A stretch of DNA of 64,000 nt from positions 41,357,880 to 41,421,879 of the forward strand of contig CP141132.1 of NCBI GenBank assembly GCA_035236585.1, given 5' to 3'. The notes below the pieces were generated by a model that was not told the origin of the DNA, ran no database searches, and saw only the letters and a list, made by a program, of their open reading frames with translations. Both the position numbers and the translations under genes were made by a program. The DNA is from Warburgia ugandensis (lineage: Eukaryota; Streptophyta; Magnoliopsida; Canellales; Canellaceae). Below are positions 12,931 to 62,849 of the stretch, piece by piece. Within the stretch, counting starts at the first letter, position 1; the number at the start of each line of letters is the position of its first letter.

Positions 12931-14040
12931 CTAATGTCTAAGAGTGACTCTAAGAGTTAGTCCCACATTCACCAGGGAGAGAGAATTGGGCCAGTCATAA
13001 GAGTTCATGGAACTCTAATTGTCATGACACATTTTTCCTATGAGGAAGAGTAAGACGTCAGGCCATATGGGCAGCCAAAGCTAACAATATCATATCCCAA
13101 CTGTTACATTTGGTATCAGATCCGATTCCCCTCATGATGGTGGGTTAGCAGCTCATGGTACATGAAGATGAGGGTTCTCTAAGGGGAATGAGGAGGATAA
13201 GTGGTGCCATGCCTAGCTATTCTAGTTGTAAGAGACCGATGTCCAAGGTTGACACTGATAGTTAATGGCACATTGTCCAAGGAGATGGAACTGGACTAGT
13301 TATAAGAGTTTGTCAAAATCTAACTATCACTATGCATTTTCCCTACAAGGAAGAGCAAAGTCATGAGGCCTTATGGGCAGCCAAAGCAAACAATATCATG
13401 GTTGTTGGACACTGGCTATTACAATTAGTATTAGAGCTAGTTCCTCTCTTGATGGTGGACTAGCCGCCCATGGTCTACAATGATGTAAGTTACCTGAGTT
13501 GGGATCAGGAGGCTCAGTGGTGCCAAGCCTAGCAGTTCTATTAAATGAGACCAATGTTTGTGGGTGACTCTGAGAGTTAGTCCCACATTGCCCAAGGAGA
13601 TGAAGTTAAGCCAGTTATAAGGTTCATGGAACTCTAACTATCACGATGCATTTTCCTTATAAGGAAGAGTAAAACCATGATGTTGTATTGGCATCCAAAG
13701 CAAATAATATCGTGACTATTGGATTCTGGTTGTTACAATTAGTATCAGAGCTAGTTTCCATTGTGATGGTGGGCTAGTTGCTCATAGGCTGTGAGGATCA
13801 GATTTCGTGAGTGGGGATGAGGAGACTTAGTGATGTCAGGCCCAATGGTTTTAGTTTAAAAACACCAATATCTAAGAGTCACCCTTCATTGCCCGTGGAG
13901 AAGGAGCTGAGCTAGTTATAAGACATGCATGTGCTATTAGTGTGTATGTATTTTCCCTACAGGAAAGAACAAAATCATGCCACTTCAGCCAAAACAAACA
14001 ATATAGACACTGTTGTATCCTAGGTGTTACAATATGACTC
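12931..14040 (+). repeat. Tandem array of TRIM-like short-LTR units
   Basis: Three to four diverged tandem copies of a unit of about 300-310 bp, with equivalent points near 12940, 13240, 13555 and 13865. Each unit has a GAGAGTTAGTCCCACATT-like block, an AAGGAAGAG block, CAATATCATG, then GTTACA followed by TTAGTATCAGAGCTAG-type sequence that resembles an LTR 3' end plus initiator-Met PBS. Each unit therefore looks like one short LTR with part of its leader, repeated head to tail. No coding sequence is present. The array abuts the satellite at about 14040. Confidence 0.65.
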
Positions 14041-16702
14041 TACGAGATTTGATTTTGTGCCTTTGAATTTCCATGAACATGTAAGGTTTTGACATTGTGC
14101 ATTATGACTTACCATCATTTAATGGCTGGGACAATGTGTTAAGGATCAAGCAATGACTTGAAAAGTTTGGACATTGTGTTTGGCAACCCCCCATGACTCA
14201 AAGTGATTTTACTTTGAGCCTAGGCACTTCCAAGAACATCTATTATTTTGACATATTGTTTTGCGACTTCCCATGGTTGAAATGCTCTCTTATTGTGGCA
14301 AGGATAATCCAACGACTTGATATGTTTAGACATTTTGTTTGAAAACTTCCCATGACTTGAAGTGATTTCATTTTGTGCCTTGGGGCTATTGGGGACATGT
14401 AATGTTTGGACATTATGCTTTGGGAGTTCCCATTCTTAAAGTGCACAGACATTGTATCTAAGATCATACAAGGCTTGAAAAGTTTAAAAATTGTGTTGAA
14501 AACTTTCCAATACATGATGTGATTCAACTTTGTGCTTAGGGAATTCTAAGGACAAGTAATGTTTTGGGACATCCCAATTTTTATGCCTAGGTACTTTTGA
14601 GGATCATGCGATGGCTTGAAAAGTTAAGGCATTGTGTAGGAAACTTTCTAATAAATATTTGATTTTCTGCCCAGGGACTTCCTAGGACAAGTAAATTTTT
14701 GACATTGTGCTTTTGTAATTCCCAATGCTTTAAGTGTTTGAGCATTGTACCAAGGAACACTCAATGGCTTGACATGTTTAGACATTCTATTTGGAAACAT
14801 CTCAAGGCTTGAAATGTTTTAACATTGTGCCTTGGGAGTTCCCAATGCTTAAAGTACTCGAAGTTTTGCCCAGGATCATCCAACGACTTGGAAAATTTAG
14901 AAATTATTTTTGCTATCTTCCTCGAACTCAAGGTGATTTGAGATTTTTCTTGGGAAAATGTTTTGACATTGTGCTTGAGGACTTACCATCACTTAAAGTG
15001 CTTATAATATTTTGAGGATTAGACCAATGACTTGAAAAGCTAGAACATTGTGTTTGGAAACTTCCAGTGACTAGAAGTGATTTTACTATGAGCTTAGGCA
15101 CTTTCCAGAACATGTAATGTCTTGAAATAGTGCTTTAAGACTTCCTATGTTTGAAATTCCTAAGCATTATTCCAAGGATCATACAATGACTAAAAAAGTT
15201 TAGACATTGTGTTTGAAACTTCCCAAGACTTGAAGTTATTTGACATTGTGGTGTGGGACTTCCAAGGACATGTAATGTTTTGACATTGCATCTTATAATT
15301 TCCTAATGGTTAAAGTGCTTGAACATTGTGTTAAGGATTGATAATTTTAGACATTGTTTTGGGGAAATACTCAGGATATGAATTGATTTGACTTTGTGTC
15401 TAGGGACTTCTAAGTTCATGTAATATTTTAACATTGTCCCTTAGGTGTTTGTAGCACTTAAAGTGCTAGAAATTGTGTCAAGGATCATCAATCAGCTTGA
15501 AAATATCAACCATTGCCATTGGCAACACACTGGGATGCAAAGCTCTTTGACTTTGTGCTGAGGGACTTCGCAAGACATGTAATGTTTTAACATTGTACGT
15601 CAATACTTCTAAGCACGTAAAGTTCTCAAACATTGTTCCAAGGATCATCCAACAGTTTGAAAAGTTTAGACATTGTGTTTGGTATCCTTCCACAACTTGA
15701 AATGACTTGACTTTGAGTCTAGGTACTTTTGAGGACCTTCAATGTTTTGACATTGTTCATTGGGACTTCCCAGTGCTTAAAGTGCACTAATATTGTGTTG
15801 AGGATCATGCAATGGCTTGGAATGTTTAAGCATTGTGTATAGGAACTTTCCAAGACTTGAAGTGATTTGACTTTCTGCCTATGGACATCTAAGGTCATTT
15901 AGTATTTTGACATTGTTCCTTAGGAGTTTCTACCATTTAAAGTACACAATTACCAAAGCTCATCCACCATCTAGAAAAGTTCTACCATTGTGTTTGAGAA
16001 CTTCCCTGGACTTGAATTGATTTGACTTTGAACCTAAGTATTTTCAAGGACACATAAGGTTTGAACATTGTGGCTTGGGACTACCTAGCACTTAAAGTGC
16101 TCAAACATTGTGTCAAGGATCATCCAACAGCTTGAAAAGTTCACACATTGTGTTTGATTTGATAACTTTTCAAGACTCAAAGTAACTTGACTTTGTGACT
16201 ATGTGCCATATTCTGACATTATGTTTTGGGATTTCCCAATGCTTAAAGTGCCATGACATTGTGCCATGAAACATCCAACAACTTGAATAGATTGGCATTG
16301 TTTGGAAACTTCCCAAGACTCATAATAATTTAACTTTGTGTTTAGGTGCTTCCTAGGACATGTAATGTTTTAAAATTTCACTTGGGAGTTCATAGTGCTT
16401 AAAGTGGTAAGACATTGTGCTAAGGATCATACAAACACCTTGACTAGTTTAGACATTATGTTTGGAAAATTTTCCAAGACTCGAAGTGACTTGACTTTTT
16501 CCAAGAGACTTTCAACAACATTGTAATGTTCTAACACTATGTTTTGGGACTTCCTAGTGCTTAAAGTGCCGTGACATTGTGCCAGGTGTTCTAATGGCTT
16601 AAATAGATTAGGCACCATTTTGGAAACTCCCACGACTAGAAGTGATTTCACATTGAGCATGGGGGATTTCCATGGACAAGTAATGTTTCAACATTGTGCT
16701 TT
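14041..16702 (+). repeat. 160-bp satellite, block 1
   Basis: Roughly sixteen diverged copies of the 160-bp monomer described for the block at 43887-55143. Recognisable recurring pieces are GACATTGTG, AGGATCATCCAA, TTGAAAAGTTTAGACATTG and AAGGACATGTAATGTTTTGA. The block runs from the short-LTR array to an LTR-like insertion at 16703. Short frames on both strands here are by-products of the repeat. Confidence 0.9.
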
Positions 16703-18040: not shown

Positions 18041-18510
18041 CTATGCTAAGATACTAAGCATACTTATATCATGAAGGTCTATAATTATAGACAAAGATCA
18101 CGTATGTACACACATGAATCCTTCATACATTCTTGTACATCCACCTACCTCAAACTAGTATCTTGAATAATACATCTCAAGTGGTATTCTTCCACATTGC
18201 CCATCTTGGTCTGGATTCATACATCTGTCAAATCATATGTATAAAGTTATTTCTCTATACAGGTATGTATTCCTATAAGGGATGACCTAATTTTTCCTTG
18301 AATCATGTTTGATCAAGGGTTTGGGTTTTCTATCTACATTTTTCTACATATACATACATAATTTCTACATATACATTAACAATACAACATTTGTATTCTT
18401 ATTGGTTTTGACCATTCAAGATCCTTCGAATCTTGTTTGATCTTTCTTATCTTTATTACAATTTTTATTAGGATTAGATGATTTACTAACCTTTTATGCT
18501 CTTATTATTA

Positions 18511-22459: not shown

Positions 22460-22465
22460 AGTTTT

Positions 22466-29588: not shown

Positions 29589-29683
<95 letters not shown>

Positions 29684-30930: not shown

Positions 30931-30935
30931 GGTAC

Positions 30936-38365: not shown

Positions 38366-38380
38366 TTAAGGGGATAATAA
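38366..38380 (+). other. Polypurine tract region
   Basis: TTAAGGGGATAATAA directly before the 3' LTR. Just upstream is GGAATTTCAAGGACGAAAAT (from about 38344), a segment that precedes the tract in Tekay-type chromoviruses. Confidence 0.75.
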
Positions 38381-42646: not shown

Positions 42647-42955
42647 GCCCTTAATTGAAGATTTAAGTTTTCAATTAAAACAATGGATGGCTCAGATCAA
42701 ATCTGGGTGGTGCGGCTATAAGGACGACCAACGACCTGCGTCTCCATCATGGAGACACAGGCAGCATTGTTCCTATGCCAGGTGGCAGTTTGCACGTGAG
42801 CCCTTAATTGAATATTTAAGTTTTCAATTAAAACAATGGATGGCTCAGATCAAATTTGGGTGGTGCGGCTATAAGGATGACCAACGGCCTGTGTCTCCAT
42901 CATGGAGACACAGGCAGCGTTGTTCCTATGCCAGGTGGCAGTTTGCACGTGAGCA
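42647..42955 (+). repeat. 153-bp tandem duplication with hairpin
   Basis: Two copies, starting at 42647 and 42800 with GCCCTTAATTGAA, differ at only a few positions. Each contains CTCCATCATGGAG. In the second copy CCTGTGTCTCCAT-C-ATGGAGACACAGG (42888-42914) is a perfect 13-bp inverted repeat. Because 153 is a multiple of three, a 106-codon frame (42687-43007) runs through both as a 51-residue repeat. I do not count it as a gene. Confidence 0.9.
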
Positions 42956-43886
42956 CATGCGCAGGGGTGCACCCACAGGGAACATCCCTGCTTGCATTCC
43001 GCTCTAGCATGCTGGAACCCGATATATTAAATAAGCTTTAATACATCATATCTTTTCAATTTATAGGACCTGATCACCTCTTATCGGGTCCATCCATTCA
43101 ATTTTGGTACTTTTTAAGGTGGATCAGTAAATTAGAATCTAAAGTCTTCAATTGATTTCATTTCTTAGTGTTTTCCATTCTCTAGAATTCATCCATGGTG
43201 TCTGATCGGGGATCAGACATCAAAAAGTTACTGTGTAAACCAAAATCGATTGGACGGCTAAGACCGTCGATCTATTCACAGTCAATTTACATCTAAATTC
43301 ATTAATTTATCCTATATCGTAGTAATTTCAAGGAAGTATGATCTATTTGTGGTGTTTGATCAGCGATTGGACACCAAAATTTTACTGTATGAACAATACC
43401 CGATCAGACAACTGAGATCGTTCGATTGGTTTTATAGCCTATATCAAAAATCTACATTGATTATAAGGTTTCTTAGGTGTGCATTTACCTATCCCTAGGT
43501 TTAGATTAAGAAATGGACGATTAGATTGTCCATAAATCTAGATCTAGCATAAAACTAAACAGATTTAACAAGTTTAGCCAAATTAAGAATAGGGTTTTCT
43601 GAATCTCACCTCCTAAAAGCTCCACCGTATTTTTCCCAACTCAGGCATGCTAGATTGGCTCTGATTTGCCATGAAATGCCCCATCCTAGTCGTGCATGTA
43701 CTGTTCATGCCACAATCTACATTCGTTTCTTCTCTAATCGTAGTAAAAGCCACAAAACCAGAGGGGTTTTGCTCGTGGCTTCATGCTGAAGAGGATAGAC
43801 GGCTTGGATCATCGATCTAGGCTGCCATTTTCTTCAGCGACTGCTGCAAACTTCAGTGAGACCGAAACCCCTAAAGTGTTGTTACA

Positions 43887-46800
43887 ATGATACATGGATC
43901 ATCCAAGAACTTGAAAAGTTAATACATTGTGTTTGAGAACTTCCAAGGCCTAAAAGACATTTGATTTTGTGCCAAGGAACTTCCAAGCACATTTAAAAAT
44001 TTGAATTCTTTGTACTTCCCAAGACTCAAAATATTATGACATTGTGCTTTGGGAGTTTCTAAGGCCTAAAGTGCTCGAACATTGTGCCAAGGATCATCCA
44101 ATAGCTTGAAAAGTTTAGACATTGTTTTTGGGAGCTTCCTAGGACTCAAAGTTATTTGAGTTGGTGCATAGGGATTTCTAAGGACATAATGTTTTGAATT
44201 TGCACCATGGGACTTACTAGCACTTGAACATTGTGTCAAGGATCAGTATATGTCATGAAAAGTTTGGACATTGTATTTGGCATGACTCATAGTGATTTTA
44301 CGATGAGCCTAGGCACTTTCAAGAACATGTAATGTTATCACATTGTGCTTTGTAATGTCTCGGCTTGAAATGGTCAAAGTATTATGCGTAGGATAATCCA
44401 AGGGCTTGAAAAGTTTGGATAGTTTGGAAAGTTCCAAATACTTGAAGTGATTTAACTTTGTGCTAAGACACTTCCAAGGACATGTAACGTTTTGAAATTT
44501 TTCTTTGGGACATCCTAATGCAAAAAGTACATGGACATTGCTTAGGGACTTCCATGAACATGTAATGTTTTGACATTGTTCCTTGGGACTTCTTGGTGCC
44601 AAAAGTGTTCGGGCATTGTTTTAAGCATCATCCAATGGCTTGAAAAGTTTAGACATTGTGTTTGGGAACTTCCTAGGACTCGAAATAATTTGACTTTGTG
44701 CCAAGGATTTTTGAAGGATGTGTAATGCTTTGACATTGTGCCTTCAAATTTCCTAGTGCTTAAAGTGATTGGACATTATGTCAATAACCATCCAACAAAT
44801 TGATAATTTTAAACATTGTCTTTCGAAACTTCATGTGATGGAAAGTGACTTGATTTGTTCCAAGGACTTGCAAGGACATGTAATGCTTTCAACATTGTGC
44901 CTTAGGAGATCTCAGCACTTAAAGTTCTTGGACATTATGCTAAGGGATCATCCAATGTCTTGAAAATTATAGATATTGTCTTTGATAACTTCTTAGGATG
45001 CAAAGTTTTTTGACTTTATGTTTAGGGACTTCTAAGGACATGTAATATTTTGACATTGTGCATTGGGACTTCTCATCACTTAAAGTGCTCAAACATTGTT
45101 CCAAGGATCATCAAATGGTTTGAAAAGTTTCGACATTGTGTTTGGAACCATCCAAGACTTGAAGTGATTTGGCTTTGTGCCTAGGAACTTCAAAGGATAT
45201 GTAATGTTTTGACATTATGCCTTGGGAATTCCCAACACTTAAAGTCCTTGGACATTGTGCCAAGAATCATGAAACAATTGGAATTGTTAAGAAATTGTGT
45301 TTGGGAACTTTTACGTCTTGAAGTAATTTGACTTTATGCTTATAGATTTCTAATGACATGTAATGTCGTAACATTGTTAGGGACTTCCAAGGAAATTCAA
45401 TGTTTTGACATTGTACTTTGCCACTTCTTAGTGGTTCAAGTTCTCAAACATTGTGCCATGAAAAATTCTATAGCTTGAAAAGTATAAACATTGTGTTTAG
45501 GAACTTCACAGAAGTCAAAGTGATTTAAATTTGTCCTTAGGGACTTCCAAGGACATGCAATGTTTTGACATTATACTTTGACACTTTCAAGCACTTGAAA
45601 TTGCACCAACATTTGGCCAAAAATCATCCAATGCCTTGAAAAGTTTGGACATTGTGTTTAGAAACATCCCAAAACTAGAAGTGATTTGACTTTGTGCCTA
45701 GGGGACTACCAAGGACAAGCAATGTTTTGACATTGTTCCTTGGGACTTCTTAGAGTTAACATGCTCAAACGTTGAACAAAGTATAATCCAAAGGATTGAA
45801 AAGTTTAATGTATTTGGGAACTTCCAGGGACTTAAAGTTACTTGGATTTGTGCCTAGGTACTTTTAAGGACATGTAATGTTTTGACAATGTTCTTTGGGA
45901 CTTCGTAGCACATAAAGTTCTTGAACATCATACTAAGGATCATTCAAGAGCTTGAAAAGTCTAGTCATTGTGTTGAGGAACTCCTTAGGGGTCTTAGTGA
46001 TTTGACTTTGTGCCTAGGGAGATCAAAGCACATGTAATGTTTTGACATCACGCCTTGGGACTTCCCAGCACCTAACATGCTCCAAAATTATGCCAAGGAT
46101 GATTCAATGGCTAAAAAAGTTTAGACTTTGTGTTTGGCAACTTCCCAAGACTTGAAGAGACTTGACTCTGTGTCTACGTACTTCTTAGGACATGTAATGT
46201 TTTGACATTGTGCCTTAGGACTGTTTGGTGCTTTAAGTGCTCAGACATTGTGTCAAGAAACATCCAATAGCTTGAAAAGTGATTTGACTTTGTGCCTCTG
46301 GACTTCGATTGACAAGTTGTCTTTTAACATTGTGCCTTGGGTCTTGCTTAGGGACATCTAAGGGCATGTAATGATTTGGCTTTGCACTTCAGAACTTAGC
46401 AGCTCTTAAGGTGCTAAGGGATTGTTCCAAGATTATCTAATGTCCCAAAAGTTTAGATATTGTGTTTAAAAATTTCCTAAGACTCAAAGTGGTGTGAATT
46501 TATGCCTAGGGTCTTTCAAGGACTTATATTGTTTTAGCATTGTGCCTTGGGAGTTCATAGCACTAAAATTGATCGGGTGTTGAGCAAAGGATCATCCAAT
46601 GGCTTGAAATTTTTATTCATTGTGTTTGGGAACTTCCAAAGACTCGAAGTGACTTGAATATGAGCCTAGGCATTTCCAAGGATATTAAATGTTTTGACAT
46701 TATACCTTGGGACTTTCTAGTGCTTAAGTGCTCATAGATTATGCCAAGTATCTTACAATGGCTTGAAAATTTTAGACATTGTATTTTGAAACATCCATGG

Positions 46801-49800
46801 ACTCAAAGTTACTTGACTTTGTGCCTACCCAGTGCTCTGAAGTTGAGCCAAGGATCATCCAAAACTTGAAAATTATAGATTTTTTGTGTGGGAACTTCCT
46901 TAAACTCGAATTGATATGACTTTATGCCTAGGTATTTCAGAGAACAAGTAATGTTTTAACATTTTTCCATGGGAGTTCCCAATCTTAAAGTGCTTGGACG
47001 TTGTGTGAGCAATCATCCAATGGATTGAAAAATTTTGAGATTGTGTTTGGAAACTTCTCAAAACTTGAAGTGATTGATTTTGAGCCTCGGGACATCCAAG
47101 GACATGTAATGTTTTGACGTTGTGCCTTGAGACTCATAATGCTTAAAGTGCTTGAACATTATGCCAAGGATCATACAATGTTTTTGTGAACATCCCAAGA
47201 CTTGAAGTAGTTTGACTTTGATCCTAGTGATTTCCAAGGACATATAATGTTTTGACATTCCACCTTGGGCTTTCAGTGCTTAAAGTGCATGGACATTTTT
47301 CTAAGGATCATACAATATCTTGAAAAGTTTACACATTCTTTTTGGGAACTTCAAAATACTCAAAGTGGCTTGAGGTTGTGCTTAGGTACTTCTAAAGAAC
47401 ATGTAATATTTTGACATTGTGTTCTAGGAGTTCCAAGCACCAAGCACGTAAAGTGCTTGTAAATTGCACAAAGGAACATCCAACATCTTGAAAAGTATAT
47501 ACATTTTGCTTTGACACTTACCAGAACTTGAATTGGTATGAATTTGTAGTTAGGTACTTTGAAGGACATGTAACATTTTAACATTATGCTTTGGGACTTC
47601 CTAATATGTAAAGTTCTTGGACATTGGGTGAAGGAGCATCGACCAACTTGAAAAGTTAAGACATTGCTTTAGGAACTTCCTACAACTCGTAGTGATATGA
47701 CTTTGTGTATAAGTATTTCCATGGACATGTAAATGTTTTTACATTATTTCTTGGGACTTATCAACATTTAAAGTGCTCTGACATTGTGGTAAGGAACATC
47801 CAACATCTTGACAGTTTAGATAGTCTGTAGTCGAAAAGGAGAGTCATTAAAGGTTTTTCAAATCAAAATTCAAATTCAATTGTTATTTTCTTTCCAATCA
47901 TTTGGATGTGTTTGAGAACTTTCTATGGCTTGAAGTGATATGTCTTTATTCCTAGGGATAACTAAGGACATGTAATGTTTTGACATTGTGCCTCGGCCAT
48001 ACCAGTGATTAAAGTGCTTGGACATTGGGCTAAGGATCATAGAAGTGCTTTAAAAGTTTAATAATTTTGTTTGGAGAATTCATAGTGCTCATTGTGGTTT
48101 GACATTGTGTCTCAGAACTTCCATGAACATAATGATGTTCTGACATTGTTCCTTCGGAGTTCGCAGGACTCAAAATGATTTCACATTCAACCTGGGGACT
48201 TCCAAGGACACATAATGTTTTGAGATTGTGCTTTAGGAGTTCAAAGCACTTAAAGTCCTTAGATTTTGGGCAAAGGATCATCTAATGGCTTGAAAAGTTT
48301 AAACATTGTGTTTAGGAACTTGACAAGGCTCGAAGTGATTTCACTTTGTTCCTTGGGATCATCTGTGGGCTTGAACATTTTAGTCTTAGTATATAGGAAT
48401 TTCCCATGACTCATTGTGATTTGATATTGTGGCTAGGGAGTTACAAAGACATGTAACATTTTGAAACTATGCCATCGGAGTTCTTAGCACTTAAAGTGAT
48501 AGGAGGTTGTGCAAAGGATCATCCAATGGCTTGAACAGTTTTAACATTGTGTTAGGAGACTTTGTTTGGAAACTTCTTAGAACTCATAATGATTTAACTT
48601 TATATCCAAGGATTTCTAATGACATGTATAATTTTTTTTCATTGTTCCTTGGGAGTTCCCTACACTAAAAGTGCTTTGATGTTCTGCTAAGGATCATCCA
48701 ATGGCTTTAAAAATAAAGGCATTGTGTTTGAACTTCTTAGAACTCTAAGTGATATGACTTTATTCCTAGGTGTTTTTGAGGACATATAATGTTTTGACAT
48801 TGTGCCTTAGGCCTTACGAGCACTTAAAGTTCTCAGACATTGTGACAAGTACCATCAAACGACTTAAAAAGTTTAGACATTGTATTTGGAAACTTCCTAG
48901 GACTTGATGGGAGTTGACTTTATGCATAGGTACTTATAAGGACATGTAATATTTTAACATTGTGGTTCGGGACTCCCTAGCATTTAATGTGTTCGGACAT
49001 TGTGTTAACGATCATCCAAGGGCTTGAAATATTTATATAGTGTGATTAGGAATTTCATAGAACTCAAAGTGATTACAATTTGTTCATAGGGACTTGAAAA
49101 GACATGAAATGTTTTGACATTGTGCCTTGGGATTTCCTAGCACTTAATGTGCTTGACATTGTGCGAAGGATCATTCAATGACTTGAAAAGTTTAGATATT
49201 GTTTTTGAAAACTCCTAGTATTATAAGTGATATGACTTTGTGCCTCAGAATTTCCAAGGACATGTAATGTTTTGGCATCGTACCATAGGAGTTCCCTGAA
49301 CTTAAAGGGCTCCAACATCGTGCCAATGATCATCTAATAGCTTAAAAGTATAGAAATTCTGTTTGGGAACTTCCTAGGACTCAAGGTCACATGACTTTGG
49401 GCCTAGGTGTTTTCGAGGGCATGTAATGTTTTGACATTATGCCTTGGGACTTACTAGTGTTTAATGTGCTTAGACATTGTGCCAAGTACCATCCAATGGC
49501 TTGAAAACTTTAGACTTCTGTTTCAAAACTTCTTAGGACATGTAATGTTTTGACATTGTGCTTTGGGACTTTAAAGCACTTAACATGCTCGAACATTGTG
49601 CCTTAGGATCATCCAAGGGTTTCAAACATGTATACATTGTGTTTGGGAACTTCCCAAGACTTGAATTGATTTGATTTTGTACATAGGGACTTGAAAGGAC
49701 ATGAAATGTTCTGATATTGCGCTTTGGGATTTTCTAATACTTAATGTACTTGGACATTATGCACAGGATCATCCAATGGCTTGAAAAGTTTAGGTATTAT

Positions 49801-52800
49801 TTTCAAAAATTCTTATGATTGGTACTGATATGTCCTTGTGCCTAGGGATTTCCAAGGCATGCAATGTTTTAACATTGTGCATTGGAGCTTATCATTGCTT
49901 AAAGTGTTAAGACATTCTATTAGGGATCATCCAAGAACCTAAAAGGTTTAGTCACTATTTTTAGGAACTTCCTTGGACTCATTGTGATTTCTCTTTGAGT
50001 CTAGGTAGTCCCATGAACATGTAATGTTTTGACATTATGTCTGGGGGAGTTCCTGTTGCTTAAAGTGCTTGGGCGTTGTTCAAAGGATCATCCAACAGCT
50101 TGAAAATTTTAGACACTATATTTGAGAACTTCCTAGGACTCAAAATGATTTGACTTTGAACCTATGGATTTCCATGGACATGTACTGTTTTGACATGTGC
50201 TTTAGGAATTTCCAGGATCAATAATCACTTGGATTATAATTTGTGTCGAGGGATTTCTAAGGTGAACTATTGTTTGTTACTATGACTTGGTAGTTCCCAG
50301 TGCTTAAAATGCTAGATCATTGTACCAAGTATCATTTTCTGGCTTAAAAAGTTTAATTATTGTTCTTAACGACTTCTCAGGACTCATAACGATATGGCTT
50401 TGAGTCTAAGGGCTTCTTATGACAAGTAATGTTTTGACAATTTTCCTTGGGAGTTACCATCATTTAAAGTTCTCAGACGTTGTGCCAAAGATTGGCTTGA
50501 AAAGTTTATACATCGTGTTTGGGACATCCAAGGACATGAAGTGATATGACTTTATGCCTAGGTATTTCTAAGGACATGTAATGTCTTGACATAGTGCCTA
50601 GGTATTTTTGAGGACATGTAATGTTTTGACATAGTGCCTTGGGACTTATGAATGTTGAAAGTGTTCAAACATTGTTCCAAGGATCATCCAACATCTTGAA
50701 AAGCTCAAACATTGTGTTTGGGAACTTTCAAGGAGTCAAAGTGACATGACTTTATGCCTAAGTACTTCCAAAGATATGTAATGTTTCAACATTGTGCCTT
50801 CGAATTTATCAGGGCTTAAAATGCTTGAACATTGTGCCATGGAACATCCAATGCTTAAAAGTTTAGACTTTGTTTTTGAGAACTTCTTAGGACTCATAGT
50901 GATATGACTTTGTGCCTAGGGATTAATTAGGATATGTAATGTTTTGATGTTGTACCTTGGGACTTACCAACACTTAGACATTTGTACTAAGGGCTTGCAT
51001 ATTTTAGTCATTTTGTTTGGAAACATCCTTGGAATCATAGTGGTTTGACTTTATGTCTAGCAAATTTCAAGGGCAAGTAATGTTTTTGCATTATTCCTTG
51101 GGAGTTTGTAGTGCTAAATGAGCTTGAACATTGTTCCAAAGATCATAAACTAGTTTGAAATGTTTAGTCATCGTGTAGTGATTTAACTATGTCTAAAGAC
51201 TTCTAATGACAAGTAATGTTTTGACATTGTGCCTTGGGGGCTACTAAAGTTTATAGTAGTTAACATTGTGCCAAGGTTCATCTAACTGCTTGAAAATTTT
51301 AGGCAATGTGTTTGGGAACATCCCAAGACAAATTATTTCACTTTGTCCCTAGCAACTTCCAAGGACATCAAATGTTCTGACATTGTGCTTTAAGTTTCTC
51401 TATACTTAAATGTTCTTAGACATTATGCTAATGATCATCCAAGTGCTTGAAAAGTTTATACGCTATTTTCGAAAACTTCCTAAGACTGGATGTGGTTTGG
51501 GAACTTTTACAGGACTAAAGTGACTTAACATTGTACCTGGTGACTTCCAAGGACATCTAATGTTTTGACATTGTGCTTTGGGATTTCCCAATGCTTAAAT
51601 TGATCTTGGACATTGTGCAGTGGAACATCCAACAACTTGAAAAGTTTTGACATTTTTTTTGTATCTTCTTAGGACTTCAAGTGATTTTACTTTTAGAGGT
51701 AGGGATTTCCAAGGGCATAAAATGTTTCAACAATGTGCCTTAGGATCATCCAACTGCTTGAAAAGTTTACATTTGTGTTTGGGAACTTCCCAGGACTACC
51801 AGTTGATTTGACATTGTTCATAGGGACTTCCAAGGACATGTTGTTTTTACATTGTGCCTTGGGAGCTCCTAAAGCTTAAAATGGTTGAATGTTATGCAAA
51901 GTTTCATCCAATGGCTTGAAAAGTTTAACTATTGTGTTTAGGGACATTCCAAGACTCAAAGTGATTTCACTTTGTGCCTTAGGTCTTCCAAGGACATCTA
52001 ATGTTTTGACATTGTGCATTTTGGTTACCCAGCATTTAAGGTGCTCAAACATTATGCCAATGATCAACCAAGAACTTCAAAAGTTTATACACTGCTTAGG
52101 AACTTCCTAATGATTAAGGGCCTGTAATGTTTTAACATTATACCTTAGGAGTTCTCTATGATTAAAGTGACTGAACATTATGGCAAGGTTGATCCAATGG
52201 CATGGAAAGTTTAGACATTATGCATGGGAACTTCCTAGGATGAATTGATTTGACACAGTACCTAAAGACTTCTAAGGACATCTAATATTTTGAAATTGAG
52301 CTTTGGGACTCCCATCACTTAAAGTGCTTGAATATTGTGCAAAGGATCATCCAATGGCTTGAAAAGTTTAAACATTGTATATGGTAACTTCTTAGGACTA
52401 CAAGTGATTTGACATTGTGGCTAGGGATTTCTAAGGACATTTAATGTTTTGACCTTATACTTTGGACTTCACAGTATTTAAAGTTCTTGGACATTGTGCC
52501 ATGGAACATCTAACGGCTTGAAAAGTTTAAACACAATGTTTGGGAATTTCCTAGGGATCAAAGTAAATTGATTTTGTGCCTAGGGACTTCCAAGGTCATG
52601 TAATGATTTGATGTTGTACCTTGTGAGCTAATAGCACTAAAAGTGCTCAAAGATTGTGCAAAGGATCATCTAATAGCTTGAAAAGTTTAGACCTAGTATT
52701 TTAGAACTTCTTAAGACTCAAAGTAAATTGACTTTATGCCTAGGATTTTAATGGACATGTAATGTTTTGATACTCTTCCTTGGGACTTGCCAGTACTTGA

Positions 52801-55143
52801 ATTGCATGGGCATTGTGTCAAGGATCATCGAATGACATGAAAGATTAGACATTGTGTCTAGGAACTTCCCCAGGACTCAAAGTGACTTGACATTATACCT
52901 AAGGACTTCCCATGGCATGTAATGCTGTGATGCCCTAATTTGGGACTTCATCGCACTAAATGTGCTTGGATATTTTTCCAAGGAACATCCAACAACTTGA
53001 AAAGTCTAAACATTGTGTTTGGCAACTTCCCAGGATGCCTAGTGATTTGACTTTGAGTTTAGGGACTTCCAAGGGCATGCAATGTTTAGACATTATGCCT
53101 TCAGAGTTCCTAGCATTTAAAGTTCTCAAACATTGTGGGAAGGATCATCTAACAGCTTGAGAAGTTTAAACATTGTGTTTTGGAACTCCCCAATACTCAA
53201 AGTGTTTTATGTTTGTGCATATGTATAATCTAGATGTTTTTTAGCATTATGCTTTGGGAGTTCCCATCACTTAAAAAATTTTAAAGACAATTTTCAAAGA
53301 CTATCTTTAAAAACCATTTTTTTAATCTCTAAATATAGTGCTGAAAAAACTATCTTTTTGAAAGTCTATGTTTTTAAGGTCATTTATTGTGCAGACATTG
53401 TGACAAGAAACATCAAATGGTTTGAAAATTATAAGCATTATGTTTGAGAAATTCCCAAGACTAGAAGTTATGTGACTTTACACCTAGGGTCTTGTAAGGA
53501 GATGTAATATTTTGACATTTTTCTTGAGATTTCCTAGGGCCTAACATGCTCTTACACTTGGCAAGGGATCATACAATAGCTTCAAAAGTTTAGATATTTT
53601 TTTTTTGGAACTTCTCAAGACTCAAAGTGATATGACTTTGTGTCTAGGTATTTCTTAGGACATTTAATGTGTTGAAATTATACCTTGGGATTTAACGGTG
53701 TTTAAAGTCATCGGACATTGTGCCAAGGTTTATCCAAAGGCTAGAAAAGCTCAAAATTGTGTTTAAGAATTTTTAAAGACACAAAGTAACTTAACTTTGT
53801 GCCTAGGTACTTTCAAAGATGTGTAATCTTTGACATTGTGCTTGGGACATACTAGCTCTTAAAGTGGGATAGACACTATGCCAAAGGATCATCCAATGGC
53901 TTCAAAATGTTTAAACATTGTGTATGGAGACTTACTAGGACTAAAGTGATTTCACTTTGTACCTAAGGACTTCTGAGGCCATCTATTGTTTTGAATTTGT
54001 AACTTGGGAGTTCCTAATGATTAAAGTGCTCGATCAATGTGTCAAAGATCATCCAAAGGAGTAAAATATTTAGACATTGTGTTTGGAAACTTTCCTTGAA
54101 ATGATTTGGAATTATACATGTAGACTTCTAAGGAGATATAATATTTTGCATTTTACTTTGGGACTTCCTAGTGCTTAATGTTCTTGGACATTGTGAAAAG
54201 GAACATCCAATGGATTGATAAGTTTAGACATTGTGTTTGGGAGCATCCTAGGACTTCAAGTCATTTGACTTTGTGCCTATTGATTTCAAAGGGAATACAA
54301 TGCTTTGATAATGTGCCTTAGGACTTACAATCTTTTGAAGTCCTCAAACGTTGTTCTAAGATCATCCAATGGCTTGAAAAGTTTAGACATTGTGTTTGGG
54401 AACTTTGCAGTACCCGAAGTAATTTGACTTTGTGCCTAGGACTTCCTAGTGCTTAAACATGCCTTTATATTATGCCAAGGATCATCTGGTAGCATAAGAA
54501 GTTTAGACATTGTTTTTGGGAACTTCCAAGGACTCAAAGTGATATGACTTTATACATAGAGATTTCTAAAGATATGTAATGTTATGACAGTGTGCCTTGG
54601 ACTTGCCAACACTAAAAGTGCTTCAAGATTGTGCTAAGGATCATTCAATGGCTTGATTAGTTTACACATTCTTTTTTTATGACTTTCTCTATCTCTAAGT
54701 GATATGCCATTGTTCGTAGGGTTTTCCAAGGATATGTAATGTTTTGATATAGTCCCTTGGGACTTACTAGGGCTTAAAGTGCTCGAAATTTGGGCAAAGG
54801 ATCATCAAAGAGCTTGAAAAGTTTAATCATTGTGTTTGATAACTTCCAAGGACATGTTGTTATTTGATTGTCTTTGGATAATTCTAAGGACATTTAATAT
54901 TTTAACGTTGTGCCATGGGAGTTTCCAGTACTTAGACCTTGTGCAAAGGATCATCTAATGGTTTGAAAAGTTACGACATTGTGTTTGGGAACTACCTTGG
55001 ACTTAAAGTGATTTGACATTGTGCCTAGGGACTTCTAAAGATATACAATGTTTTAGCATTGTCTTTGGGGTTTCCCAATTCTTAACATGCTCAACATTGT
55101 GGCAAATGATCATCCAACCACTTGAAAAGTGGAGACATTGTGT
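43887..55143 (+). repeat. 160-bp satellite, main block
   Basis: About 70 copies of a monomer whose consensus I count as 160 bp. Equivalent points such as the GGATCAT sites at 44945, 45105 and 45264 are 160 and 159 apart. The monomer divides into four 40-bp quarters, each opening with ACATTGTGCC or a close variant (fourth ACTTTGTGCC). Quarter 1 ends near CTTAAAGTGCT, quarter 2 carries AAGGATCATCCAATGGCTTG, quarter 3 GGGAACTTCCCAAGACTCG and quarter 4 CAAGGACATGTAATGTTTTG. Copies are diverged and some are partial. Two unrelated spacers (about 47828-47902 and 53276-53388) interrupt it. All reading frames in it are repeat by-products. Confidence 0.93.
53276..53388. other. Non-satellite spacer within the array
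   Basis: An AT-rich insert of about 113 bp splitting a monomer between CTTAAA and GTGC. It contains two ACTATCTTT direct repeats and weak inverted similarity between its ends. It could be a small MITE-like insertion, but no clear terminal repeats or target duplication were seen. Confidence 0.4.
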
Positions 55144-57942
55144 TGTGACTTTAAGTTAAAACCCACAAGCACATGAATCAGTATAGTAATTCATGCGAAG
55201 GAGGTAGATTCCATGAGGAATCAAAGAATTGTGATATTAGTGGTCCTTACTTAAATTATCTAACCTTTCCAAAGTAATATTTTATCCTCAAATAAAAAAG
55301 AAAAATTAGCACATGAAATGTACTAAAACTAAAACATTATAAACTTAACAAATTTTCTAAAAACATACTTTCTAAAAGGAAAACTTTCTAAACATAAAAT
55401 TTAGCAACTACTATAAGGAAACAAATCAATCACTTTTCTAAACTAAAATTAAAAACTAAACTAAGATGCAAACTAGTAATTATTAGAATCTAAACTAAGA
55501 TCAATTACAATTAAAAATGAAAGATAAAGAAAAAATAAAAACTAATCAAGCAAGTAAAAGGGAGCTTCCCAAGTAACATGTGTGTGACCATAAAATGGTG
55601 TGCATGATTCATGGATTAGGAAGTGGCCCAAATAATTAATTTTAAAACTTAGCACATGTAATATAATTCAAGCATTGATTAAAAAATCTGACATTCTAAT
55701 TAAGTCTTTAAAAGAATCAAGTAAACATGAAATATAAGTTGTGAAAATTAAACATAAACATTCCTTCAAAAATTCTAATAGCATGCTATTTTTGAGCATC
55801 CAATCAATGAGACATGGAAAACATTGAACTGAACATTTTTCATGCAATCAAACATTCATGAATTGAGATATTTAACTACTAGAAATAAGTATCAACCAAA
55901 AACTCCAAATTACTTATTGAATCAAAGAAAAATCCATCAAAATACCACACATAATATAGGTATTCCAAATCTGAAAATTGTGTCCTATTACAATGAATGA
56001 GAGTTGATGGTAATCAACCCAAAAATACATGCTAAAACCTTCTTCAATCATCTAACATCAATCATAAGTAAGCGTCTATCAAGATCAATGGACAATCCAC
56101 TAGAAAGTAAAGGCAAAGCCTGAGGAACACTAAGAAATGCAAGTAGGAGATCAATGAAATCAAAGGCAAATCTAATGGTAATGAAAAGCAAAGAAAAGAG
56201 AGTATCATCAATAGATTCAAGGTGACTTTCCCCTAGCTATAACTTCAAGAGGAAAATAACATTGGATCTAAGCAAGAAGATGCAAAGGAATGGAAAGAGA
56301 AAATAAGAACTTCCTGTGCATGAAACTAAGAAGGATTTAGAAATAAAGAAGATAAAAAGATGAACAAGCTAATCTTTAATGGAAAAATAAAGGACAAGGG
56401 CTAGTAACCATAAATGGAACACAGAGAAGAGCATCCACCCAATGAAGAATGTGTTGAATGCTTAAAGAGGAAAGGAAAGAGGGGAAGAAAAGGGATGCCT
56501 CCTCTCTTTAGAGGAGGTATTCTTTTCCTCCAAAAGTGGGATGGTTTAATCCTTGTTGGGGTTCTTTTATACTTTATGCCCTAAGTTTTCAAGGGTGATT
56601 TGAAATAAAGGTAGGGTGGGGATGAGATAGGAAGAAGCATGAGTGGTTAGGATGAGAATAGGAATGACTACTTAGGGTTTATCAAAGAAGGAAACAAGTG
56701 GGAAGTTTTGGTGGGAGGCGCCTCTTTTTTAGGAGGGGTGTCACCCACTTGAAAAAATCATTAATGCCCTTTTAAAACCAGAAAGTTGGTTGGAGAGGTG
56801 AGGTAAGAAAGGGAGGGTGAGGTGGAGAGTAAAAATCATGGTGATTTGTTAGGCAAGAAGGAAATAAGGATAGTGGTGGAATGGATGAGGCGAGGGAAGG
56901 GAAGATCCTACTTTGTAGGTGTTTGACATGGATCTCTCTCCTTGAATGTTATTCATGTGGAATTCCTATAGGAATGGAAGGTGGGAGGAAAGAGAGGGAT
57001 AGGAAAAAAATGAGGAAGAGAGGTGAAATAGGAAAAGATAATTGGCTAAGTAGTTTCCTAAGAAGTGGGGATTGGTTGGATGATTGGAATGGAAGTTTAG
57101 GATGGTGGTAGAGTCTCAGAAAGAAAGGAATTTTGGATGGAAAGTTAAATTCGTAGTGCTCCTTTGTAGTGAGCTGGAAAGTGAGAAAAAAGTGAAAAAA
57201 ATCATAGAAAAATAATAAAAATGGAGAGGTATCTTCTTATTGGTCCACATGCTACCTTATCATAATGGATTTTCCCTCAATTATCATCAAAGTAAATCTA
57301 GAAATCCCAAGGATTTTTCTTTGCATTATCCTACAATCATGACCACCCATGTAGCTTGGATCATTTCACTTGATGGCTAACTTTGAGGGCTCAATTGGTT
57401 TGGCTTCATAGCTGGCTTTGATGGCTTTCTTGGCTTAGCTTAGTAACTCAAATACTTAGTAGTCTGTCACCTTCTTCATGGGCTAAATGGCTATGTGGTT
57501 TAAGTGTAACCCATGCAAAGATGGTGGGCTTTGCATGGCTTGTGCATGGGCCTACTTTGGCCACCTTTGACTCCTTCCATTCCATCTTAAAGTGACCTTA
57601 AGATGATCTGGATCTTGATCTCATTTTGATGTGCTGACATTGAGACTTTGACTCCATCTTTTGATCTTAATAGTCAATTTTCTTCTCGATCAATCCCGAC
57701 TATTAGATCATCATCCCGATTTCTATAAAAAGTGTAAAGTTTTAATTAAATCCTAAAAAGTATGATTAATCACATACCTACCTCAGCTTAGTCTCTAAAG
57801 CTACAAAACATCATATATTTGTTCTTCTATGTCAGAAATACATTTTTTACGACTTTTGGTCAAAAATCCTAATTTACCCCTATAAGTTATAACACAAGGG
57901 TAACTAATTGGGTGGTTTTCATGTAAAATTAAACACTTATCA
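55144..57942 (-). mobile_element. Athila-type solo LTR in the satellite
   Basis: 2799 bp bounded by TGTGAC and TTATCA on the plus strand. On the minus strand it starts TGATAAGTGTTTAATTTTAC, similar to the Athila-like LTRs here (TGTTAAGTGTTTAATTTT), and ends AAGTCACA. The flanks TGTGT (55139-55143) and CGTGT (57943-57947) are a target duplication with one mismatch, and the satellite continues in phase on both sides. No PBS or protein motif lies inside, so it is a solo LTR. AGTATAAAAG on the minus strand (about 56564-56573) is a candidate TATA box. Plus-strand purine-rich DNA at 56440-57180 corresponds to the pyrimidine-rich sense domain of its relatives. Confidence 0.75.
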
Positions 57943-60066
57943 CGTGTTTTGGGAACATTCTAGGACTCTAAGTGATTTGTATTTGTGCATAGAGACTTCA
58001 AAGGCAAGTAGCATCATGTCTTGAAAGTTGTTAGTGCATATACTACTCAAACATTGTGCCAAGGATCATCCAACAACTTGAAAAGTTTTGACATTGTGTT
58101 TGGGAGCTTCCCAAGACTACAAGTGATTTGACATTGTGACTAGGGACTTCTAAGGATGTGATGATTTGACATTGTGCATTTGGGACTTCTTAGTGCTAAA
58201 AGTCCTCGGACATTGAGCCAAGGATCATCCAACGGATGGAAAAGTTTAGATATTGTATTTGACAACTTCCCAAGACTCGAAGTGATATGACCTTGTGCTA
58301 AGGGACTTCCATGGATATGTCTTTAGCATTGTACCATGGGAGTTCACTACACTTGATCGAGTGTTGGTGAAAGGATCATCCAATGGCTTGAAAAGTTTTG
58401 ACATTGTGTTTGGTAACTTCCTAAGAATTGAAGTGATTTGACTTTGAGTCTAAGAATTTCCAAGGACATTAAATGTTTTGAAGTTGTGTCATGGGAATTT
58501 ATAGCACTTAAAGTTCTTGTACATTGTGACAAGGAACATACAATGGCTTGAAAAGTTTAGACATTGTGTTTGGGAACTTCCATAAACTCAAAGTGACTTG
58601 ATTTTGTGCCTACATGCAATGACATGTAATATTTTGACTTGTGCTTTTTAACTTCCAATCACTTAAGTGCTTGTACATTGTAACAAGGAACATCCAATGA
58701 CTTGAAAAGTTTAGGCATTGTGTTTGGGAACGTCCAATGAATCCAAGTGATTTGATTTTGTGTCTAGGATTTTCAAGGACATACAATATTTCGACATTGT
58801 CCCTTGGGACTTACCATTACTTAAAGTACTAGGACAATGTGTTAACAGTCATCCAATGGCTTAAAAAGTTTAGTCATTTTGTTTGGGAACTTGTTAGGAC
58901 TCATAGTGATTTAATGTTTTGACATTGTGCCTTGGGAGTTCCCTACACTTAAAGTGCTTTGATGTTGTGCTAAGGATCTTCCAATGGCTTAAAAAATGTA
59001 GACTTTTTGTTTGGGAACTTCCCTGGACTCAAAGTGATACAACTTTGTTCCATGATATTTCAAAGAACATGTAATGTTTTTAACATTGTGACTTAGGAGT
59101 TTCCTTGCATAAATTACTGAGAAGTTGTCCAAAGGATCTTCCAAAGGCTTAGAAATTTTAGGCCCTGTGTTACGAAAGTTCTTAGGAGTCAAAGTGATCA
59201 GACTTTGAGCCTAAGGATTTTCAAGGACATGTAATGTTTTGACATTGTACCTTGAGATTCACTAGTGCTTAAAGTACTCAGACATTGTAGGACTTGAAGT
59301 GGTTTGACTTTGTGCCTAGGCACTTGCAAGCAAATAATGTCTTGAAATTGTACTTTGTGTTTTCCAAGTGCATAGCTTAACTTGTTCAAACATTGTGCAA
59401 ATTATTGTCCCATCACTTGAAAAGTTTTGAAATTTTTTTGGGAAATTCCTAAAACTAAATGTGATATGATTTTATGCTTAGGGATTCCCAAGGACTTGAA
59501 TGTTTTGACATTGTTCTTTGGGACTTCCCAGCAATTAACCTGCTAGGACATTGTTCCAAGGATCATCCAAGGGCTTGAAATGTCTATACATTGTGTATCA
59601 TAATTTCCCAAGACTCAAGGTAATGTTTTGACATTGTGCTTTGGGATTGCCTAGCACTTAATGCACTCGGACATTGTGCTTAGGATCATCCAAGGGCTTG
59701 AAAAGTTTATACTTTGTGTTTGTAAACTCTTAAACTCGAAGTGATTTGACTTTGTGCTGCAAGGACATGTAATGTTTTGACTTTTGTGCCTTGGGATTTC
59801 TTGGGGCTTAGCATGCTCAAACATTGTGCAAAGGATCATCCAATGGCTTGAAAAGTTTAGATCTTTCTTATGGGAACTTCTTAAGACTCGAGGTGATATG
59901 AATTTATGCCTAGCGTTTTCCAAGGACATGTAATGTTTTAACATTGTCAATTGAGACTTGTCAGTTCTTAAAGTGCTCTGTCATTATTCCAAGGATCATC
60001 GAAGGGCTTGAAAAGTTTAGTCATTGTACTTGAGAACTTCTCTTAACACCTTGTGACTTGTCATGG
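57943..60066 (+). repeat. 160-bp satellite, block 3
   Basis: About thirteen copies of the monomer, continuing the main block after the solo LTR. A well-conserved copy lies near 58060-58260. It ends where short-LTR sequence starts at about 60067. Confidence 0.9.
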
Positions 60067-61036
60067 TCTCTAGGGATGTAACATCTAAGGTCCAATAGTC
60101 ACAATATTATCCACTTTGGCACAATGCGGACAGCTTTTGCTTTTATTGATAGGAAAAATGCGTCATGCCCATTAGAGTTCCGTGAATTATTATAACCAAC
60201 TAGCTCCCTCCATAGGTGATGTTGAGCTAACTCTGAGGGTCACCCATTACACAACCATCTTGTAGCTTGCCACCCTTATAGGGCTGCCCACCAGGACTAG
60301 CAAGATAGGGCCCCTGTAATGACTGGCCCCACAACAATGTTATTGTGAGATTTGGCCAAAGCCTCATAGTTTTGTTTTTCCCAATAGGAAAAGGCCTCAT
60401 TACTGAGAGATACCACCCATACCCTTATTGCTAGCCTAGTCCTTTCTCCCCAAGTGATGTGGGACTAAGTCTTAAGGCCACCTATAGCTCACCACCTAGT
60501 AGTTCATTAGCTTCTCTAGTCCATCCACAAAGGCTGGCCACTAGGCAGCCCTCTTTCTCCTTGTAAGAAACATGCATCCCCACTTGACCGTCTTTGGGTC
60601 AATGAGCATCCACGTTTGGCTAGCACTACCATTACGAGGGAAACTAGCTCTATACCAACTGTAAGGATCGGGTGTCCCATAGCAATGATATTGTCCACTC
60701 GGTCTAAGCCTCATGGTTTCATTTTTATCCCATAGGAAAAGGCCTCATTACTAACACCTGAGGATGCGTGTTCCCTGAGGAGGTAAGAGGGGACCTTGTC
60801 TCTCCAGTCATGGTGGGTGGCCCTGTAAGTGTGGCAAGGTAGAGGATGGCTGTGCAGTGGGTGACCATGAGGGTTAGTCCCACATCGCTCAGGGAGAGAG
60901 AATTGGGCCAAATATAAGAGTTTGTGAACATTTAATGGTCATGATACATTTTTCCCTATGGGGAAGAGCAAAATTTGTGAGTCCACTGTGCCAAAGTAGA
61001 TAATATTATGATTGTTGGACCCTAGTTGTTATAAGG
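60067..61036. mobile_element. Cluster of TRIM-like short-LTR pieces, both orientations
   Basis: About 1 kb between satellite blocks. Minus-orientation pieces occur at about 60067-60250 and 60640-60760, the latter with AGCTCTATACCAACTGTAAGG (an LTR end beside an initiator-Met-type PBS complement). A plus-orientation piece with GTTAGTCCCACATCGCTCAG starts at about 60870 and ends GTTGTTATAAGG at about 61036. Shared motifs with 434-667 and 12931-14040 include CAATGATATTGTCCACT and AGGAAAAGGCCTCATTA. Stretches between them show similar but more diverged sequence. No gene is present, and the short minus frames at 60516-60931 are incidental. Confidence 0.6.
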
Positions 61037-62849
61037 GAGTTCCAATGCTAGGAGTTCCTAGTGCTTAAAGTGATCAAACATTCCAATGGCTTAAAAAGTT
61101 TAGACATTGAGTTTGGGAACTTCCCACGACTTGAAGTGCTTTGACTTTGAGCATACATATTTGCAAGGATGTGCAATGTTTTTACATTGTACCTTGGGAC
61201 CTTTTAGGGCTTAAAGTGCTCAAACATTGTGCCTACTATCATACAATGGCTTGAAAAGTTTAGACATTGTGTTTGGGAACTTCACAAGACTTGAAGTGAC
61301 TTGACATTGTGCCTAGGTATTTCCAAAGACATGTAATATGTTGACATTGTTCTTTGGGACTTCCAAACACATAAACTGCTCGTACATTATGCAAAGGAAC
61401 ATCCAATAGCTAGGAAATTATAGACATTGAGCTTGCAAACTTCTAAGGACTTGAAATGATTGATTTTGTGGCTAGGGACTCCTAGAGACATGCAATATTT
61501 TGACATTATTCTTTGGAACTACCTAGCACTTAAAGTTCTTGGACATTGTATGAAGGAATATCCACTAGCTTGAAAAGTTAGACATTGCTTTTGGGACCAT
61601 CCTAGGACTTGGAGTGATATGACTTTGTGCCTAGGTATCCAAGGACATGTAAATGTTTTGACATTGTTCATTAGGACTTGTTGGCATTTAAAGTGGTTGG
61701 TCATTGTGCCAAGGATCATTCAACAGCTTAAAAAGTTCAAAAATTATGTTTGGAACCTTTCATGGACTTGAAGTGACTTAACTTTGTGCGTAGGTACTTT
61801 CAAAGACATACTATTTTGATATTGTGACTTGGGACCTACCAGCACTTAAACTGCCCGAACATTAGGCCAAGGAACATCCAATAGTTTGAAATTTTAAACA
61901 TTGTATTTGGGAACTTCGTAGGACTCAAAGTGATATGCCTTTGTTCATAAGGATAAAAACCAAGGACATGTTATGTTTGACATTCCACCTTGGAACTTAC
62001 CAATGCTTGGACATTGTGCCAAAGATCATGCTTGGAAAGTTTAGTCATTTTGCTTGGGTGCTTCACAAAACTTGATATGATTTGAATTTTGTCCCAAAAC
62101 TTCCAAGTACATGTATGTCTTGGTATTGTTTCTTGGGATTTCGTAGTGCTTAACGTTGTTGGATGTTGTGCAAAGGATCATCTAATGGCTTGAAAACTTT
62201 AGACATTGTGTTTGGAGACTTTTCAGGACTCGAGGTGATTTAACATTGTGATTAGCAACTTCCAAGGCAATAAAAGTTTAAACATTACACTTTAGGAATT
62301 CACAGTGATTAAAATGTTTGGACATTGTGCCAAAGAACATCCAACAGCTTGATAAGTTCAAACATTGTGTTTAGGAACTTGCCAAGACTCGAACTAATTA
62401 GACTTTTTGTCTAGGGACTTTCGAGGACAAGTATTGTTTTGACATTGTCCTTTGGGAGGTTCAAGAAATTAATGTTGTTGAACATTGTGTAAAGGATCCT
62501 CTAGTAGCTTGAAAAGTTTAAACATTGTGTTTAGGGACTTTTTGGGCTCAAAGTCATTTGATTTTGTTGCTAGTGATTCTAAGGGCATACAATTCTTTGA
62601 CATTGTTCCTTAGGACTTACCATCGGTTAACGTGCTCAAAAATTATTCGAAGGATCATCTAACACCTTGAATAGTATAGACATTGCATTTGAGAACTTCC
62701 TAAGACTCAAAATGTTATGACTTTGTGGATAGGTATTTCACAGGATAGAAATGTTTTGACATTGTGCCTTGGGACTTACCAATGCTTAAAGTGCTCTAGT
62801 ATTGTGCCAAAGACCATCCAATGGCATGAAATGTTAGACATTTTGTTTG
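61037..62849 (+). repeat. 160-bp satellite, block 4
   Basis: About eleven copies of the same monomer, ending at TTGTTTG where an LTR begins. Overall the four blocks sum to about 17.9 kb of satellite in the window. Confidence 0.9.

Follow-up and report, generated by a model that had tools for sequence, protein, structure and literature searches.

The window analysed here spans 64,000 nucleotides (C7:41357880-41421879); the whole genome comprises 1,122,538,268 bases in 14 contigs (C1-C14). The window contains a long tandem repeat that a preliminary description read as a hierarchical satellite, with a 160-bp monomer made of four related 40-bp quarters. This raises the question of whether such a hierarchy holds, and of what the arrays are at present: a centromere, part of a transposon, a sequence kept by selection, or the remains of a satellite that is no longer maintained.

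Period and extent of the satellite

Autocorrelation of positions 43887-54500 gave peaks at 40 (0.435), 80 (0.399), 160 (0.375) and 120 (0.352) bases over a shuffled mean of 0.272 (sd 0.0043), which bears out the 40-bp periodicity; the longer periods are presumably blurred in the raw autocorrelation by small insertions and deletions. A cyclic profile, which tolerates insertions and deletions, was trained on positions 43887-50500 and tested with 12 periods on four held-out stretches, including 14041-16702. The held-out log-odds per base were 0.403-0.451 for period 40, 0.464-0.537 for 80, 0.449-0.530 for 120, 0.548-0.628 for 160 and 0.517-0.581 for 320. In every one of the four stretches period 160 outscored the other 11, among them 159, 161, 200, 240 and 320, and the 160-bp repeat can be taken as real. 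That it was the unit of amplification, as previously proposed, is supported by the held-out profile, the parse and the analysis of the quarters. The commonest spacing of monomer starts in the window was 158-160 bases, and TRF reported periods of 153-160 in the longer arrays and of 40 or 80 in a few rows. A sub-period below 40 was also considered and rejected: a 20-state profile fitted poorly, and, apart from shifts of 40, 80 and 120, the consensus never matched itself at an identity above 0.42.

The parse with the cyclic profile (Table 1) assigned 17,593 bases of the window to the satellite, as compared with the ca. 17.9 kb given earlier, and set the limits at 14033-16702 and 43870-62849. The first block, which had been counted with the satellite from position 14041, does belong to the same family as the main array according to the held-out profile fit, and its longer segments are 0.79-0.80 identical to the consensus. 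In the second block, the profile left out four stretches longer than 30 bp (78, 116, 2803 and 971 bp) and several shorter ones. Since the satellite breaks off at profile column 101 before the 2.8-kb insertion and resumes at column 100 after it, and since the insertion has TG...CA ends and near-identical TGTGT/CGTGT flanks, it is probably a solo LTR or a similar element. No RNA family was detected in the window at gathering thresholds. The copies of one unit, arranged head to tail in long arrays and present in high number at many chromosomal places, are those of a satellite DNA.

Table 1 Coordinates of the features in the window and of one composite locus on C5
Feature	Position	Strand	Details
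First satellite block	14033..16702	+	ca. 2.65 kb of 160-bp monomers; profile parse, held-out fit
Repeated segment pair	18504-20362 with 38374-40199		89%
Repeated segment pair	20349-22462 with 28654-30933		87%
Repeated segment pair	30931-31800 with 40195-41068		95%
LINE reverse transcriptase	34996-36162		
Main satellite array, left part	43870..55144	+	profile parse; autocorrelation
Non-satellite stretch in array, 78 bp	47829..47906	.	profile parse
Non-satellite stretch in array, 116 bp	53276..53391	.	profile parse
Insertion in array, 2.8 kb (2803 bp)	55145..57947	.	profile parse
Main satellite array, middle part	57948..60077	+	profile parse
Insertion in array, 971 bp, inverted terminal similarity (by eye)	60078..61048	.	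profile parse; sequence
Main satellite array, right part	61049..62849	+	profile parse; TRF period 159-160
Composite repeat, 595-bp satellite piece and ca. 1.7 kb of other DNA	L061 (C5:58029500-58037499)		

The four quarters

The relatedness of the four quarters was confirmed: in the consensus they are 65-78% identical in pairwise comparisons and all four agree at 20 of the 40 positions, whereas shuffled quarters reached 26% on average and 52.5% at most (2000 shuffles of 6 pairs). The opening that recurs every 40 bp is, however, not common to all of them, since ACATTGTGCC is replaced by ACATTGTGTT in Q3 and by ACTTTGTGCC in Q4. Among the 743 monomers of a first set, 2877 of 2879 quarters fitted their own slot best, a count that is partly built in, as the quarters were placed by the same profile. 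A direct comparison of quarters across different window monomers, which avoids this circularity in part, gave identities of 0.687-0.720 for the same slot and of 0.485-0.572 for different slots, so that the quarters are distinct and yet stable between monomers, as had been described. Diverged subunits thus occur in a fixed order inside a larger repeated unit, as in a higher-order repeat. Quarters within one monomer were no more alike than those from different window monomers, and we therefore see no sign of sequence exchange between the quarters inside a monomer.

The order in which the quarters arose is less clear. The period-80 profile is clearly better than that of period 40, with period 120 about equal to 80, and the identity of the parse consensus to itself is 0.750 at a shift of 80 and 0.669 at 40 or 120. 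In 5000 column bootstraps of the 743-monomer consensus, the pairing Q1+Q3 / Q2+Q4 was recovered 2861 times, Q1+Q4 / Q2+Q3 1767 times and Q1+Q2 / Q3+Q4 once, with 371 ties. A 40-bp ancestor is supported, but its having been duplicated twice does not follow from such a split; the hierarchy proposed in the preliminary description is correct in outline.

Decay and near absence of homogenization

In all, 923 monomers were collected from the window and 28 fetched loci (rows covering at least 130 of the 160 columns, as in the first set of 743, shorter ones being dropped; L001-L008 contributed none); the fetched monomers are ca. 80% identical to the consensus. The mean identity over all pairs of the 743 monomers, 0.693, equals that obtained from independent column draws (0.693), and monomers of the same array (0.698) and neighbouring monomers (0.699) are hardly more alike than monomers on different chromosomes (0.692), which indicates that homogenization has nearly stopped. 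Neighbours in the window were 0.7002 identical versus 0.6970 in shuffled order, a value reached in 212 of 2000 shuffles, and, with L024 left out, monomers of the same cluster were 0.7052 identical versus 0.6929 for other clusters. Concerted evolution, by which monomers are more alike within than between arrays and which is a usual property of satellite DNA rather than a strict criterion, is thus visible as a slight excess at most. The successive units also lack the high identity of a higher-order repeat (mean 0.69-0.70), with the exception of L024 (C3 near 34.0 Mb), which holds internal block duplications of ca. 0.9 identity.

The decay is not perfectly star-like, because 56 pairs of columns separated by more than 5 positions show an association at p<1e-6 and the frequencies of variants change from locus to locus; those at columns 4, 43 and 109, for example, are infrequent in the window and on C12 but more frequent on C3, C10, C13 and C14. 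From these two features we infer at least two founder variants. Some clusters are also more alike inside than outside, by 0.023 on C12, 0.025 on C1 near 82.3 Mb and 0.071 on C13 near 27.1 Mb (13 monomers).

Substitutions in the 743 monomers were dominated by C to T (0.174) and G to A (0.170), versus 0.065 for A to G and 0.061 for T to C. The transition fraction fell from CG (0.484, 8 positions; inflated, since four ancestral bases were set by a rule favouring decayed C) to CHG (0.362, 6 positions), CHH (0.161, 60 positions) and A/T columns (0.046). Moreover, TA was below expectation at all four inferred CpG dyads (52 vs 171, 127 vs 200, 96 vs 166 and 30 vs 113, in 811 of the 923 monomers, with L024, L031, L034 and L036 omitted), as expected if the partner of a lost site no longer stands in a CpG; the check is independent in part, its dyads having been called by the same rule. 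Graded loss in the order CG, CHG and CHH is the pattern of methylated, silent plant DNA, and suggests that the satellite sits in methylated heterochromatin. Column conservation averaged 0.86-0.87 for A/T and 0.73-0.74 for C/G, with some columns above 0.9 and a maximum of 0.951. Transversion profiles disagreed between the quarters, except for Q3 with Q4 (r = 0.52).

Breaks inside the arrays tend to follow the 40-bp register. In the de-duplicated loci (L024, L031, L034 and L036 omitted), 149 kb of satellite contained 200 register breaks, 71 of which came no farther than 2 bp from a multiple of 40 (25 expected), with net skips most often of 40 (38), then of 120 (17) and 80 (15); with those four loci included, 89 of 225 breaks lay within 4 bp of such a multiple (50.6 expected). 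This preference points to quarters that still pair with each other during sequence loss. Several loci also carry satellite segments that are inverted and whose joins are flush or almost so, e.g. L020, L022, L027 and L028.

Distribution in the genome and flanking sequences

Searches with one window fragment and with the consensus rendered at least 343 and at least 768 matches, distributed, among the matches listed, over 11 of the 14 contigs (C1, C2, C3, C5, C7 and C9-C14); C4, C6 and C8 had no 160-bp match among those listed for the two queries. These genome-wide counts, like those for the 175-bp and composite repeats described below, are lower bounds, and the fetched loci are a part of the matches, picked from the best ones listed. 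The listed places, including those of the composite, occupy relative positions from about 0.21 to 0.80 along their contigs, and separate clusters are found within C1, C3, C5, C7 and C13, among the matches listed.

The first block of the window ends flush at an LTR-like sequence starting TGTGATGACCC, and this element is abundant, with 6538 first-look candidates of which 40 were scored. The idea of a transposon with a shared flank is weakened by these copies: the 39 scored outside the window start no earlier than base 60 of the query, of which bases 1-63 are satellite. No single common flank was found over 47 hand-picked array boundaries, although several share LTR-like ends, and the same outer flanks across arrays, as would mark a tandem repeat internal to a transposon, are thus lacking at these boundaries, with the collinear blocks (C13/C3 and C11/C1) as possible exceptions. 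At boundaries 14033, 60077, 61049, L027 8985 and L025 9242, similar element ends of the ATATTGT/ATATTAT..CTTTGG type abut the satellite as judged by eye, which may reflect an insertion preference.

Later block copying and a composite repeat

The array on C13 near 14.08 Mb has its monomers in the same order as the one on C3 near 21.69 Mb (16 monomers, 0.923), and a common order likewise links C11 and C1 (20 monomers, 0.859). Their collinearity scores were 3.01 and 2.24, versus 0.616 for the top of 528 shuffled scores, and across these two pairs collinear copies are found at 0.84-0.86. The C1/C3 comparison (0.72) scored just above that maximum, and C3/C13 near 22.39/14.28 Mb (0.58) just below it; weaker collinear copies on one chromosome stayed in the dataset. 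The C13/C3 match is 9.4 kb long at 89% and takes in non-satellite DNA as well. The two C3/C13 matches, for which a whole-genome duplication was considered as a possible source, have opposite relative orientations. Decayed arrays were thus later copied as blocks between chromosomes, and, since the collinear copies are far more alike than the monomers of an array, most of the decay preceded the copying. Among the loci compared, none was collinear with the window array at a score exceeding the shuffled maximum.

The first 721 bases of a 3.5-kb query from the C3 copy, ca. 120 of which are non-satellite, recur at 89-91% in at least 34 places, on C2, C3, C5, C11 and C13 among the matches listed; those that belong to one run mostly have the same orientation. 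The 8 kb fetched from C5 contain two full 595-bp satellite pieces, both with the same end columns (60 and 19), and a partial one, separated at irregular spacing by copies, some of them truncated, of a 1.7-kb sequence. On C13, 1741 bp of this 1.7-kb sequence are followed by 589 bp of satellite and then by the 1.7-kb sequence again, an arrangement that points to a composite unit of ca. 2.3 kb. This composite is a third level of repetition, absent from the first reading. At E 1e-5, nothing in the window matched its 1.7-kb non-satellite sequence.

Origin and present state of the satellite

The explanation that we favour, with a probability of about 0.78, is that of an old, decayed, non-coding satellite, pieces of which were later recopied, and which would now be passive heterochromatin with no current sequence-specific function. 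A 40-bp sequence would have multiplied and then diverged into four distinct quarters, giving the 160-bp unit, and at least two founder variants of this unit would afterwards have given rise to near-uniform arrays on many chromosomes, possibly by unequal exchange or rolling circles. In methylated heterochromatin, and with almost no exchange among them, these arrays would have decayed base by base, mainly through the loss of methylated C, of which the context gradient and the dyad deficit would be the traces. The recombination that remained would have removed 40-bp pieces between similar quarters, inverted segments and copied blocks, and transposons would also have inserted into the decaying arrays; for all of these it is the patterns that were observed. 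After most of the decay, pieces would have been copied between chromosomes, and a 595-bp piece together with ca. 1.7 kb of other DNA would have been re-amplified as a composite elsewhere in the genome. The satellite would have no sequence-specific function at present, and its effect would most likely be that of passive methylated heterochromatin.

That the arrays are, or recently were, a functional centromere appears unlikely. The 160-bp unit is of a size fit for a nucleosome, and the listed arrays lie inside the chromosomes, but none of the 28 fetched loci holds a homogeneous single-monomer array (the blocks of L024 reach ca. 0.9), and several contigs carry separate clusters. On C2, C3, C11, C13 and C14, a satellite of ca. 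175 bp lies no more than ca. 1.5 Mb from 160-bp arrays, which speaks for a centromere; it is itself diverged, however (74-80% matches), lies on C1 far from the listed 160-bp arrays (50.3 vs 77-82 Mb), and is present on C4, which has none of the listed 160-bp matches. Furthermore, 20 samples of 600 bp from C7 40.4-42.4 Mb hold no other satellite.

Spread by transposition, with the tandem repeat as the internal part of a transposon family, is quite improbable. It would account for the collinear copies on C1, C3, C11 and C13, for the non-satellite DNA in the C13/C3 match and for the recurrence of the composite, but not for the lack of a single common flank at the 47 boundaries (although several of these share LTR-like ends), for the abundance of the tested LTR-like family away from the satellite, or for the window array, which has neither a collinear partner among the loci compared nor a match to the non-satellite part of the composite. 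Very doubtful, finally, is a sequence-specific function by which selection would hold even the 160-bp order. The strict order of the quarters and the most conserved columns would be in line with it; on the other hand, the higher conservation of A/T than of C/G columns and the loss of C and G according to methylation context are what decay predicts, and the quarters, Q3 and Q4 excepted, do not share a transversion profile.

Within the account of a decayed satellite, we put forward, tentatively, that the dead satellite has served as raw material, amplified three times at three sizes with long quiet phases between: from 40 to 160 bp, as 160-bp arrays, and as the composite of a decayed 595-bp piece with ca. 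1.7 kb of other DNA. As neighbours hardly exchange sequence, the monomers would be nearly independent records of methylation-driven decay. If this is so, the arrays would amount to a built-in clock, and would also provide dated markers for the blocks that were later copied from one chromosome to another. Satellites have mostly been studied during homogenization, whereas here, in hundreds of monomers with hardly any exchange, decay in each cytosine context and recombination in steps of the 40-bp register can be counted directly, and the later copying of blocks between chromosomes can be dated in relative terms.

Relation to known satellites

In the higher-order repeats of alpha satellite, a short unit diverges and its multiple then becomes the unit of amplification, with copies that are highly alike. 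The first of these traits is shared by the present satellite, but its 160-bp units differ by ca. 31%. In Petunia, PSAT6 is a satellite of 77-78 bp with two 38/39-bp subrepeats of 65-70% identity and many degenerate copies (PMC10587573); subdivision into ca. 40-bp subrepeats and degenerate copies are common to both, although PSAT6 has two subrepeats instead of four, and the likeness is one of structure. The satellites of Vicia faba are diverse, some of them at centromeres, and eccDNA rolling circles, unequal exchange and segmental duplication are named as routes of their amplification (PMC5895790). The present satellite forms part of the same plant satellite diversity; its 160-bp monomer has internal subrepeats, which the long monomers of Vicia faba lack, with the one exception of VfSat8. 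The kind of satellite is therefore already known, subdivided plant satellites such as PSAT6 being similar, and what is unusual is that local homogenization is nearly absent, that decay clearly follows cytosine context and that pieces already decayed were used again. No paper matching the 160-bp satellite was found in the literature covered, which leaves out most subscription journals; within the same coverage, 158 papers contained at least one of three short stretches of the monomer sequence, and the ten listed of these were unrelated, none of them having the 20-base stretch.

Neighbouring repeats and elements

The second satellite mentioned above is AT-rich and diverged and was observed close to 160-bp arrays at L037 1-583 and L015 2256-4808; among the matches listed, it is present on C1, C2, C3, C4, C11, C13 and C14. 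In the window, an RVT_1 match and a weak Retrotrans_gag match below the cutoff represent retroelement remnants, and the relatives with a named species of the LINE reverse transcriptase (Table 1) are mostly from plants, with at most 66% identity among the best 120 listed. Repeated transposon-like segments occupy the region between the satellite blocks (18504-41068; pairs in Table 1). Two tandem copies of a 153-bp unit (42646-42954, 96% matches) lie ca. 0.9 kb before the main array. Adjoining the first block, TRF detected a tandem repeat of ca. 314 bp (12928-14032) with TGGTATCAGAGC-like sites. In LTR retrotransposons this sequence is the primer binding site for the initiator tRNA, so the repeat may consist of small LTR elements arranged in tandem.
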